Source: Arcicella rosea
GTDB taxonomy: Bacteria; Bacteroidota; Bacteroidia; Cytophagales; Spirosomataceae
NCBI RefSeq assembly: GCF_014204325.1
Contig: NZ_JACHKT010000002.1
Coordinates: 124,001 to 188,000 of the forward strand
DNA length: 64,000 nucleotides
Direction: 5' to 3'
Position numbers and translations under genes: made by a program. Position 1 is the first letter of the stretch. Each line of letters begins with the position of its first letter. Below the pieces are notes generated by a model. It was not told the origin of the DNA. It did no database searches and saw only the letters and a list, made by a program, of their open reading frames with translations. Positions 43,219 to 47,095 of the stretch are shown here, in pieces.

Positions 43219-43734
43219 TTAAGTAAACCTTGCGTTTATGCCATCAAGTTGATAATTGTTAATTGATTGTACAAAAACTTTAGTAGTCAACCATTTACAT
43301 TTACTTTTTAGTTTTGCATTAATTGTTTGTAATCTATTTTTAGCCTGTGGGTTATTTAACATTACATCTTCCTCTAACCAGAAAACGTAACGAATTTCAA
43401 TGTCGTTTTGTCCTATTTTTTTATGAAGCGTTTGCCAAAAAACATTATTATGAGTACTATTTCTGGATGCTCCAGCTATTATAGCGATAGTATCTCGTAG
43501 TTTTTGAGCAACTTCATTTGTCAATACATCAATGTCTTCATAATTTACGCCTCTAAAATTTTTAACTTCCATAAAAAAGATTTTATCAGGAGTATAGAAA
43601 CCCAGAAAATCTGTGTCTTTTGTACCTTGTAAAAACCTTTTTGCATTGACTATATTGACGTTATTATCAGATTTGATAATGTTATACTTATCGTCGAATT
43701 CAAAATGTAGATTACTTTCTTCAAAAACAGTCAT
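43219..43734 (-). CDS. Putative PD-(D/E)xK nuclease, partner of the adjacent ATPase
   Basis: 171 residues, no named family recognised. The core fits a restriction-endonuclease fold: an acidic N-terminal helix (Glu5/Glu6), a beta-hairpin with Asp42 in KDTDFLGF, then Glu56-x-Lys58 in FFMEVKNFRG, followed by a helix LTNEVAQKLRDTIAIIAGA. The Asp-to-ExK spacing of 14 residues suits the motif. A later strand RYVFWLEED may complete the sheet. It begins 6 bp after the stop of the ATPase gene, so the two are translationally linked. Nuclease activity is inference from motif; a non-catalytic role is possible. Confidence 0.7.
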   Translation of the reverse strand: MTVFEESNLHFEFDDKYNIIKSDNNVNIVNAKRFLQGTKDTDFLGFYTPDKIFFMEVKNFRGVNYEDIDVLTNEVAQKLRDTIAIIAGASRNSTHNNVFWQTLHKKIGQNDIEIRYVFWLEEDVMLNNPQAKNRLQTINAKLKSKCKWLTTKVFVQSINNYQLDGINARFT

Positions 43735-43740
43735 CTTGTT

Positions 43741-44787
43741 TTATGATTTGAGTGCTTTATTAAAATAGGTTTGCTCTAAGTCATAGAAGTTTGAAAATTC
43801 CTCTAAAATCGAATTTTCAGATAAATCAGCAATAGATTCACCTTCATCAACCAATAGTTCATTTTCTTTTTCATACATTCCAAAAAACTTAATAGGAGGA
43901 AGGGTTTCTTCGATTAAATCTTTTCGGTATTCTGATTTTAAAGAAAGCAAATTGGTCAATAAATAGTCGTGCGAAGCAATGAATACTTGAACTCCATTAT
44001 TGGCTAGTGTTATCAAAATTTCAGCAATCTGACTGATTAATCTGGGGTTTAAATTAGCTTCTGGCTCATCCCAAAAGAGTACGGAGTTTTTTCCTAACTC
44101 CCCATTGAGAATCAAATACATCAGAGTAGCGATTTTTCTAAAACCTTCGGCTACTAGAGGCATTTCCATTTTTCCTTGTTCATTTTTGAAGTAAAATCGT
44201 CCATTTTCTTTTAATACATTTGCTCCTGTAATTTTTTCTAAGGGATTTACCAACTTTTGAGCTTCATCAAATCGTCTGCCTTTTAGTAAGCTGGTGTCTA
44301 ATGCTAATGCTAACTGGTAATATGTTTCATCAAAACTAATTTCTCTTTTTTGATATAAACTGATAAAACCTTCAAAAACAGAGATGATTTCTCGTGGAGG
44401 AATATATAAAGATGCTGTTTGTGGTAAAGTAGAATATTTATCAGTCTTTACACTCGTTTTTGAATTGGTTGAAAAATTAAAACTTTGTATAATTCCGTCT
44501 ATTTCAATATTTATTTCAGCTTTTGCTCTTCCTTGACTCCTTTTAACAAGCCTTCCTAAGTTTTCAGGCTTGAAATAGTTTACTAGGTTTTCACCTAATA
44601 AGCTCTCAAATTTTTCTTTCCCAGAGCCATTATTTGCTTCATTAGTTTTTAGAATTACTAATAAGAGCTTTAACAAATGAGTTTTTCCAGAGCCATTTTG
44701 TCCAACAAATACATTCAAGCCTTTTGAAAATTCAAAAGAATTATCCTCAAAGCGAGTAAAGTTTTTAATATGAATTTTCTGAATCAT
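43741..44787 (-). CDS. AAA/ABC-type ATPase (AAA_21-like) of a two-gene cassette
   Basis: 348 residues with SMC/OLD-like ATPase motifs: Walker A GQNGSGKT (29-36) after the KNFTRFEDNSFEF strand, a family-typical SLYIPPREIISVFEGF (~126-141), a signature-like VAEGFRK (212-218), Walker B VLFWDEPEANLNP (236-248, Asp240/Glu241) and switch His273 in ASHDY. There is no TOPRIM domain, so it differs from OLD/GajA. Such ATPases commonly drive a small nuclease or toxin in phage-defence cassettes (Septu, PARIS and retron effectors are examples). Its partner here is the PD-(D/E)xK-like gene 6 bp downstream. Confidence 0.88.
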   Translation of the reverse strand: MIQKIHIKNFTRFEDNSFEFSKGLNVFVGQNGSGKTHLLKLLLVILKTNEANNGSGKEKFESLLGENLVNYFKPENLGRLVKRSQGRAKAEINIEIDGIIQSFNFSTNSKTSVKTDKYSTLPQTASLYIPPREIISVFEGFISLYQKREISFDETYYQLALALDTSLLKGRRFDEAQKLVNPLEKITGANVLKENGRFYFKNEQGKMEMPLVAEGFRKIATLMYLILNGELGKNSVLFWDEPEANLNPRLISQIAEILITLANNGVQVFIASHDYLLTNLLSLKSEYRKDLIEETLPPIKFFGMYEKENELLVDEGESIADLSENSILEEFSNFYDLEQTYFNKALKS

Positions 44788-45887: not shown

Positions 45888-46190
45888 ATGAAATACAAGA
45901 AACACGTTTTTATTTGTACTAATCAGAAAGATGCACCCAAAAAATGTTGTGGTGCAGAAAGAGGAAGTGCATTAGTGGAAGCTTTTAAAGCATCTTTAAA
46001 AGAAAAAGGATTATCTGCAGAAATTAGAGCTCAGAAAGCAGGTTGCTTAGATGTTTGTGCTTTTGGTCCAGGTTTAGTAGTTTATCCAGAAGGAGTATTC
46101 TATGGTAATGTACAATTATCAGACGTAGAAGAAATCGTGGAAAGCAATTTAGTTGGCGATAAAGCCGTAGAACGTTTGGTTATTGCCTAA
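45888..46190 (+). CDS. Thioredoxin-like [2Fe-2S] ferredoxin
   Basis: 100 residues with the ligands of the thioredoxin-like ferredoxin fold: Cys in HVFICTNQK and KKCCGAERGS, and a C-terminal pair in QKAGCLDVCAFGPGLVVYPEG. These proteins resemble the NuoE/HP0602-type (2Fe-2S) domain and donate electrons to unknown acceptors. Next to a nuclease-like gene 58 bp downstream on the same strand. Confidence 0.9.
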   Translation: MKYKKHVFICTNQKDAPKKCCGAERGSALVEAFKASLKEKGLSAEIRAQKAGCLDVCAFGPGLVVYPEGVFYGNVQLSDVEEIVESNLVGDKAVERLVIA

Positions 46191-46248
46191 TAATGTTACT
46201 CAAATTTGAAACGGAGAAATCCGTTTCAAATTTACAATCCAGCATAAA

Positions 46249-46866
46249 ATGTACAGAATTTATCCTACATTAATCAATTCATTTGTTTTGTATGAGCAAC
46301 AAGTATTAGATGCTCAGGGTAATATTTTGGTGGATTTGTGGGAAATGATTGATAGAATTAACAGAGTAAAAAAGCCAACTACCGAAGCCCAACAAAAAGG
46401 GATTGATTTTGAAAAAGCAGTAGTAACTGGCGAAAATGAAGAATTATTTGGTGAAAAAATTATTGAAAAAGCTCGTGAGTTTTTACCCATTAAATACAAA
46501 ACACAGTTTTACACAGAGGCCAAGTATAAAAATTGTTTGATTTACGGTTTTGTAGATTTAGTAGGTGGCGATCGTGCCGTTGATTTAAAATCGACTAGAC
46601 TTTATGAGCCTAATCGTTTTGCGTTGAATCATCAAAATTTGTACTTATTAGGTTTACAAAAATGGGGCGTAAAAACCTTAGATTATATCATCACTGATTT
46701 TGAAGACGTATATCAAGAACGCTACGACATCAAAACTTATGATTTCACTCCACTCTATCGCCAAATAGACGCTTTCGTAGCATTTCTTGAACAGCACAGA
46801 AAATTAATCAAAGACAAAAAGATTTTTGATAAAAAAGGAGATACCAATCAGTTGTCGTTGTTTTGA
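46249..46866 (+). CDS. PD-(D/E)xK nuclease (RecB/Cas4-like) with C-terminal beta-clamp motif
   Basis: 205 residues. RecB-type nuclease motifs are visible: Glu55 in GIDFEKAVV, Asp103 in YGFVDLVGG, Asp112-Leu-Lys114 in AVDLKSTR, and Gln129 in HQNLYLLG (motif III QxxxY-like). There is no Cys cluster as in Cas4 or AddB. The last five residues are QLSLF, an exact match to the bacterial beta-clamp-binding consensus QL(S/D)LF, after a flexible basic linker (~183-200). This suggests recruitment to DnaN during replication or repair. No family name known to me. Confidence 0.8.
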   Translation: MYRIYPTLINSFVLYEQQVLDAQGNILVDLWEMIDRINRVKKPTTEAQQKGIDFEKAVVTGENEELFGEKIIEKAREFLPIKYKTQFYTEAKYKNCLIYGFVDLVGGDRAVDLKSTRLYEPNRFALNHQNLYLLGLQKWGVKTLDYIITDFEDVYQERYDIKTYDFTPLYRQIDAFVAFLEQHRKLIKDKKIFDKKGDTNQLSLF

Positions 46867-46908
46867 GATTGCTTTAGGCTGTAAGCAGTAGGCTTACTAA
46901 TTTTTACA

Positions 46909-47093
46909 AAAATCTAAAATCTTTAATTCTTAAATCTTCAGTCTTGTTTCTTGCTTCTTGTATCTAAAAATCCAAAATCTTCAATTCTTAAATCTTCAGT
47001 CTTGTTTCTTGCTTCTTGTATCTAAAAATCCTCAAGTCCAAAGTCCTCAAGTCTTCTAGTCTTGTCTCTTGCTTCTTGTTTCTAAAATCTCAA
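46909..47093. repeat. Three tandem 58-60-bp direct repeats
   Basis: Copies of a pyrimidine-rich unit containing TTCTTAAATCTTCAGTCTTG then TTTCTTGCTTCTTGTATC recur with GTCTTG at 46941, 46999 and 47059. The first two copies are almost identical, the third diverged. The 229-bp spacer between the nuclease-like gene and the convergent HAD gene is otherwise empty. Confidence 0.85.
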
Positions 47094-47095
47094 AA

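Follow-up and report, generated by a model that had tools for sequence, protein, structure and literature searches.

Clamp-tethered nucleases help to set where DNA is trimmed behind the replication fork, and to our knowledge few of them are known in bacteria. Clamp-bound RecB-type nucleases are among those already described, with NucS and Escherichia coli RecB as precedents. NucS (EndoMS) joins a RecB-like nuclease to a C-terminal clamp motif of the form [E/K][L/Y][T/R]LF, and its C-terminal region is described as required for both clamp binding and activation (PMC8228993). In E. coli, the RecB peptide QVEMEF has a KD of 2.0 μM for the clamp; the same source gives the canonical clamp motif as QL[S/D]LF and a revised form as Q-aliphatic-x-[L/M]-[F/L] (PMC13254535).

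Another candidate for this group comes from Arcicella rosea, in a stretch of 64,000 nucleotides (contig NZ_JACHKT010000002.1, positions 124,001 to 188,000) that we call the window. A plus-strand coding sequence (46249..46866, ATG to TGA) encodes a predicted PD-(D/E)XK nuclease of 205 aa with a C-terminal clamp-binding-like tail. The original prediction, made from the sequence alone, had described the ordered core residues Glu55, Asp103, Asp112-Leu113-Lys114, and Gln129 and a terminal QLSLF, and all of these positions are as claimed. In the alignments and the structural model, Glu55 (codon 46411..46413, plus strand, as are those that follow) falls in helix 46-60, Asp103 (46555..46557) in strand 96-106, the DxK motif of residues 112 to 114 (46582..46590) in strand 109-115, and Gln129 (46633..46635) at the start of helix 128-139, an arrangement that we take to be the RecB-type nuclease layout. 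The five core residues (E55, D103, D112, K114, and Q129) are invariant in an alignment of 23 family rows and again in one of 46 rows that includes a phage relative.

An AlphaFold2 model built from the 46-row alignment (mean pLDDT 92.6, pTM 0.85) describes a single domain, with structural nuclease matches covering residues 1-189. The model was compared with solved structures by Foldseek and by a Z-scored structure comparison. Human MGME1 is the best match (5zyu; Z 12.5, 3.4 Å over 165 residues), together with 3l0a, a putative exonuclease of Eubacterium rectale (Z 11.8), Cas4 in a Cas4/Cas1/Cas2 complex (7mi5; Z 11.6), RecE (3h4r; Z 11.4), AdnA (Z 10.7), and lambda exonuclease (3sm4; Z 8.8); Exo5 is also among the best matches. 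These fold neighbours are 5-15% identical in sequence to the window protein, and we know of no comparable clamp tail for MGME1, Exo5, Cas4, RecE, or lambda exonuclease. Because a search of PDB sequences with the family profile gave no match at E 10, the fold comparison is the sole connection of the nuclease to solved structures. Residue invariance and the predicted fold support placement in the PD-(D/E)XK superfamily, in the RecB/Cas4/RecE/lambda-exonuclease group, with a complete metal-binding active site, in agreement with the RecB-like core first proposed.

Assignment to better-described members of this group was considered and rejected. RecB, AddB, or AdnA membership was set aside since this is a 205-aa single-domain protein with no fused helicase domain, and an Fe-S Cas4 was set aside since the protein has one Cys (residue 96) where Cas4 has four for its Fe-S cluster. 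RecB of E. coli RecBCD is alike in having a RecB-type nuclease and in binding the clamp, but its QVEMEF peptide is internal to the nuclease domain, within a large helicase complex, whereas the motif of the window protein lies at the free C-terminus of a small one (PMC13254535). In profile libraries, the window protein draws nothing from Pfam at E 1 and a single NCBIfam match far under its cut-off. Pfam matches across 46 family members are scattered and weak, the best being Usg-like (10 members, E 5.9e-4), and were taken as noise. The distant member L191 matches PDDEXK_1 just under its cut-off (E 7e-4). A literature search by title and abstract opening found no paper on this nuclease.

Past the last ordered element, the model ends in a coil of 12 residues, made up of a 7-residue linker (residues 194-200; 46828..46848) and the 5-residue motif (residues 201-205; 46849..46863). 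Model confidence drops over the linker, whose sequence varies among orthologues, and pLDDT is below 50 over the last nine residues (197-205), which are predicted to be disordered. The motif, which also fits the canonical QL[S/D]LF as had been claimed (PMC13254535), is carried in a flexible segment, in line with the flexible linker originally predicted.

We assessed conservation of the tail over family loci with a complete 3' end, a set in which some genes are represented by more than one row and six rows stand for four proteins of phages or prophages; L011 and L060, both truncated where their contigs stop, are left out. All 80 rows with at least 58% identity to residues 1-190 carry Q[LMT][SN][LMI]F at the C-terminus, followed by no more than 2 residues. 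The same ending occurs in 9 of 63 rows at 45-58% identity and in none of 51 rows below 45%, of which 18 end in a looser -LF. Of the 79 named loci whose 3' end is intact, 48 are tailed (QLSLF in 23, QMSLF in 11, QLSIF in 10, and QLSMF in 4); as QLSIF deviates from the revised consensus at position 4, 38 of these 48 tails fit it strictly if M is counted as aliphatic. One orthologue (L010) has QLNLF, and QTSLF, QPDLF, and GGLF endings deviate from the revised consensus too. When the rows are reduced to 130 distinct proteins, Q[LMT][SN][LMI]F closes 54 of them and a looser -LF (e.g., QPDLFG or GGLFG) another 16; the remaining 60 have neither, and 4 of those belong to phages or prophages, whereas 56 do not. 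Tail conservation in orthologues, which the original prediction had proposed as a check, therefore holds for close orthologues and fails for the family as a whole, and with 60 of 130 distinct proteins lacking an -LF tail, the core function would not depend on it.

At the DNA level, 57 distinct rows encode Q (CAA in 48 and CAG in 9) and F (TTT in 43 and TTC in 14) without exception. Ser is present in 56 of the 57, written as TCC, TCT, TCG, TCA, or AGT, and Leu at position 2 uses all six of its codons, next to a variable linker. These rows were picked by the motif, which makes the codon set circular; the identity-based count is not circular. Because every row at or above 58% identity keeps the tail and Q and F are invariant despite codon variation, we conclude from the sequence comparisons that QLSLF is under selection in the Arcicella/Pseudarcicella/Flectobacillus/Aquirufa lineage. 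The tail is looser (-LF) in an earlier-branching clade and absent from the Spirosoma/Dyadobacter/Larkinella clade. A tree was inferred from 80 of these 130 distinct proteins with the tail columns removed; on it the three tail classes need 3 changes, versus a mean of 30.9 in shuffles, a difference to be read with the tendency of related rows to cluster anyway. The position of the phage protein L131 inside the tail clade, on an end branch of 6.45, was dismissed as an artefact of branch length.

Motif statistics give a more restrained picture. With the window's own amino acid composition, Q[LM][SDN][LMI]F has a chance of 7.1e-6 per position, so that about 0.1 chance tails would be expected for an assumed proteome of 4,500 proteins and three end placements. 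The DNA pattern encoding the tail occurs at 14 sites in the genome versus 21 for a reversed control, that is, with no enrichment, and the motif alone was rejected as evidence of clamp binding; as it is weak by itself, the weight rests on conservation. Of 11 sites read among the 14, two terminate an open reading frame of at least 60 aa, namely, the nuclease gene and an 85-aa frame elsewhere in the genome (L200, contig C14), which also ends in QLSLF and has no Pfam match. One DnaN was found in the genome (374 aa, near the solved clamp 8dt6, E 2.1e-101). Also, three IMS_C (Y-family polymerase) proteins are encoded there: a DinB-like protein ends in QLSLEF, and two others carry QLNLF internally. 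From the motif match, the disorder, the conservation, and the presence of the same motif in the genome's Y-family polymerases, we infer that the nuclease tail binds DnaN.

The gene is common within its bacterial family. With a threshold of E 0.001, the profile matches 201 of 222 Spirosomataceae genomes (166 of the 181 better ones), with two matches in 4 of the 201 and one in the rest; none of the 11 searched genomes of one genus (g36; G126-G136) matches. A draw of 241 Cytophagales genomes yielded 29 matches, all Spirosomataceae, and a phylum-wide draw of 296 yielded 4, being three Spirosomataceae and one further genome, G662, with two copies. By these searches the nuclease is a chromosomal Spirosomataceae gene that is rare elsewhere, and at this threshold more distant relatives elsewhere are possible. 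Among the best 80 of 108 relatives, identity to the window protein is 78% in Arcicella aurantiaca, 76-81% in Arcicella metagenome-assembled genomes (MAGs), and 71% in Pseudarcicella hirudinis, and further named relatives come from Flectobacillus, Aquirufa, and Sandaracinomonas; these relatives put the window in Arcicella or close to it. In Spirosoma telluris (L116), the nuclease frame continues stop-free to 652 aa.

Outside Spirosomataceae, the relatives recovered are nucleases of phages or prophages. In PHROGs, the window nuclease matches phrog_35319, whose listed function is unknown, over residues 89-195 only (E 1.1e-10), and phrog_32600 at E 0.08. Two IMG/VR contigs encode relatives with 31-32% identity in the matched part, and more are found in annotated phages and in the two G662 copies; the phage relative L131 is 30% identical and shares the five active-site residues. 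Bacteroides phage BS-TP2 gp25 matches phrog_35319 with an E of 8.1e-111, and it and both G662 copies do so over nearly their full length, while L131, FP_Taranis, and Pioen match in part (E 2e-7 to 7e-6). Some of these phage genes are annotated as HNH endonuclease or hypothetical (L211 5001-5831, L212 4995-5813, and L214 3917-4528, all behind Sak4 genes or domains); for BS-TP2 gp25, annotated as an HNH endonuclease, Pfam finds no HNH match.

The phage gene order is consistent. In eight of eight phage or prophage contexts (L131, L132, BS-TP2, BS-TP3, FP_Taranis, Pioen, and G662 twice), a Sak4-like gene or domain precedes the nuclease, seven times directly and once, at a G662 copy, past a 276-aa open reading frame; the pairs L131/L132 and FP_Taranis/Pioen are closely related, which leaves fewer than eight independent contexts, and matches in MT836011, MT838382, MT838120, and MT840030 fall outside the set. 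The Sak4 assignment rests on phrog_124 in L131 (E 6.6e-49), to which L132 is near-identical by eye, on matches in BS-TP2 (E 7.4e-53), Pioen (E 3.4e-46), and beside each G662 copy (E 3.6e-45 and 2.2e-55), on residues 373-650 of a 655-aa protein in BS-TP3 (E 8.5e-44), and on the annotation of FP_Taranis. A NinB-like gene lies at most a few genes away, as HMM matches show for L131, Pioen, and the two G662 copies, annotations or notes for BS-TP2, BS-TP3, and FP_Taranis, and inspection by eye for L132. From this order, the phrog_35319 family is likely the nuclease partner of Sak4, which offers a role for a family without a listed one. Phage contig L131 also contains, at 3-746 on the minus strand, an open reading frame resembling a DNA methyltransferase, whose N-terminus, MEQELDLF, holds by eye a possible clamp-type motif.

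Window protein and phage nucleases (e.g., BS-TP2 gp25 and Faecalibacterium phage FP_Taranis gp11) thus share a homologous core, but the phage proteins sit behind Sak4 and near NinB, and none of the eight phage or prophage nucleases has a clamp motif at its C-terminus, whereas the window protein is encoded on the chromosome and has the tail. No Sak4 gene precedes the window gene, whose neighbours encode a ferredoxin-like protein and a HAD hydrolase. Four of the phage or prophage nucleases (BS-TP2, BS-TP3, and both G662 copies) stop a few residues past their match to the DKKIF of the family, so that the host tail looks like an extension. The tree does not separate gain of the tail from its loss; that the phage and prophage proteins are tailless, some ending right after the family's last ordered stretch, favours a gain without proving it.

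The chromosomal neighbourhood was compared over 81 loci (the window and 80 named loci). In the window, the order is a fructosamine kinase gene, a ferredoxin-like gene, a hairpin, and the nuclease gene, with the HAD hydrolase gene as the other neighbour. The ferredoxin-like gene (45888..46190, plus strand) encodes a 2Fe-2S-ferredoxin-like protein of 100 aa (Suc_Fer-like, E 1.8e-6, under the curated cut-off). Homologues of it are near the nuclease at 44 of 81 loci, and HAD hydrolase homologues at 43. At 33 of the 81, exonuclease III, ferredoxin-like, and nuclease genes are adjacent on one strand, as in Aquirufa-type genomes (e.g., L061 4919-6621); the hosts are Pseudarcicella, Aquirufa, Sandaracinomonas, and similar MAGs. 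The two gaps are -1 to 8 and 6 to 10 bases, or 69 and 23 in Pseudarcicella. The first gene, tested at two loci, encodes an exonuclease III (TIGR00633, 288 bits in L058 and 318 in L061, cut-off 99; PF03372, E 2.2e-26), and at 35 of 81 loci one of the next three genes downstream encodes a DnaQ/ExoX-like exonuclease (PF00929, E 3e-19 at L058). The exonuclease III cluster is absent at the window locus; in the relatives, its gene content points to DNA repair. In Aquirufa-type clusters such as L061, the ferredoxin-like gene sits between two nuclease genes.

We consider it fairly probable that the window protein, related to a phage recombination nuclease, is tethered to DnaN and trims DNA ends where repair or replication takes place. 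In this reading of sequence, model, and analogy, a single RecB/Cas4/RecE-type domain, whose complete metal-binding active site is supported by sequence and predicted structure, would be docked by its disordered QLSLF peptide into the canonical pocket of DnaN. Docking would bring the enzyme to clamps at forks, Okazaki junctions, and sites of repair synthesis, and by trimming single-stranded ends or flaps there it might allow strand-break repair, recombination, or ligation to be completed. Trimming of ends or flaps is proposed because of the fold neighbours MGME1, Exo5, RecE, and Cas4, which work on DNA ends or flaps, the phage partners, and the exonuclease III cluster. Polarity and substrate differ among MGME1, Cas4, and RecE, however, so the proposed substrate is a guess. 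The tail is kept in the Arcicella/Flectobacillus/Aquirufa lineage and its relatives, while the nuclease of Spirosoma, Dyadobacter, and Larkinella must function without it. This split between tail-plus and tail-minus members of one family, around a 205-aa protein, would provide a compact system for testing what a nuclease gains from a clamp tether.

Other explanations share parts of this evidence. The nuclease could be a stand-alone end-processing enzyme whose tail serves as a degron or autoinhibitory peptide or engages a partner other than DnaN. Its persistence without a tail in the Spirosoma/Dyadobacter clade and the non-consensus -LF endings of some clades would fit such a role, yet the tail is the canonical clamp motif letter for letter, the variants QLSMF, QLNLF, and QMSLF remain near it, and the genome's Y-family polymerases have the same motif, so we regard this alternative as rather unlikely. 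A functional counterpart of NucS, that is, a clamp-activated cutter of mismatched or damaged DNA in mismatch repair, is suggested by the same pairing of RecB-like nuclease and C-terminal clamp motif (PMC8228993). Membership in the NucS family itself was rejected: NucS_C (PF01939) has no match in the protein (Pfam, E 1) or in the genome, although 7 of 14 control genomes do match, and the single-domain model has no separate N-terminal DNA-binding or dimerization domain of the NucS type. NucS does not appear among the 50 matches listed in each of two structure comparisons, which says little either way. The genome also encodes MutL (PF01119, E 9.9e-36). We regard a NucS-like role as quite improbable.

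An anti-phage or mobile-element factor, instead of a housekeeping enzyme, has in its favour the phage relatives in Sak4 modules and a HEC-02-like candidate defence pair in the window (43219-44787, minus strand), which ends 1.5 kb upstream of the nuclease gene on the opposite strand. In this pair, an AAA ATPase matches PADLOC HEC-02A (E 2e-94) and the downstream 171-aa protein matches HEC-02B (E 4.7e-22). Presence of the gene in most Spirosomataceae genomes, the conserved gene order that, in the tail clade, joins it to exonuclease III or to other genes not of phage type, and the absence of any PADLOC match to the nuclease at E 1 all speak against such a factor, leaving it only a very slight chance. 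For the preferred, DnaN-tethered nuclease, we offer a history more tentatively, as somewhat less likely than not: a recombination nuclease shared with phages may have become, in a single bacterial family, a housekeeping nuclease tethered to the replisome or to repair sites by adding a DnaN-binding peptide past its old end. Its clamp-bound state would then have an origin independent of that of NucS, with individual clades having adjusted or dropped the tail and the gene having joined an operon with exonuclease III in genomes of the Aquirufa type. Beyond the original prediction, the analysis adds the link to phage Sak4 modules, the cluster with exonuclease III, and a history of the tail clade by clade.

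Two noncoding elements flank the nuclease gene. Between it and the HAD gene, a 58-bp tandem repeat (46908-47095) is present in 3.2 copies, and the 19-base core of this repeat has 3 matches there and, with as many as 2 mismatches allowed, none in the rest of the window. On the other side, between the ferredoxin-like and nuclease genes, a 14-bp hairpin with a GAAA loop (46202-46233) has a folding energy of -17.2 kcal/mol and a z of -6.48. A role for this hairpin as a regulator of the nuclease was rejected, as the relatives inspected have unrelated sequence there; it is probably a terminator-like element of the upstream gene.
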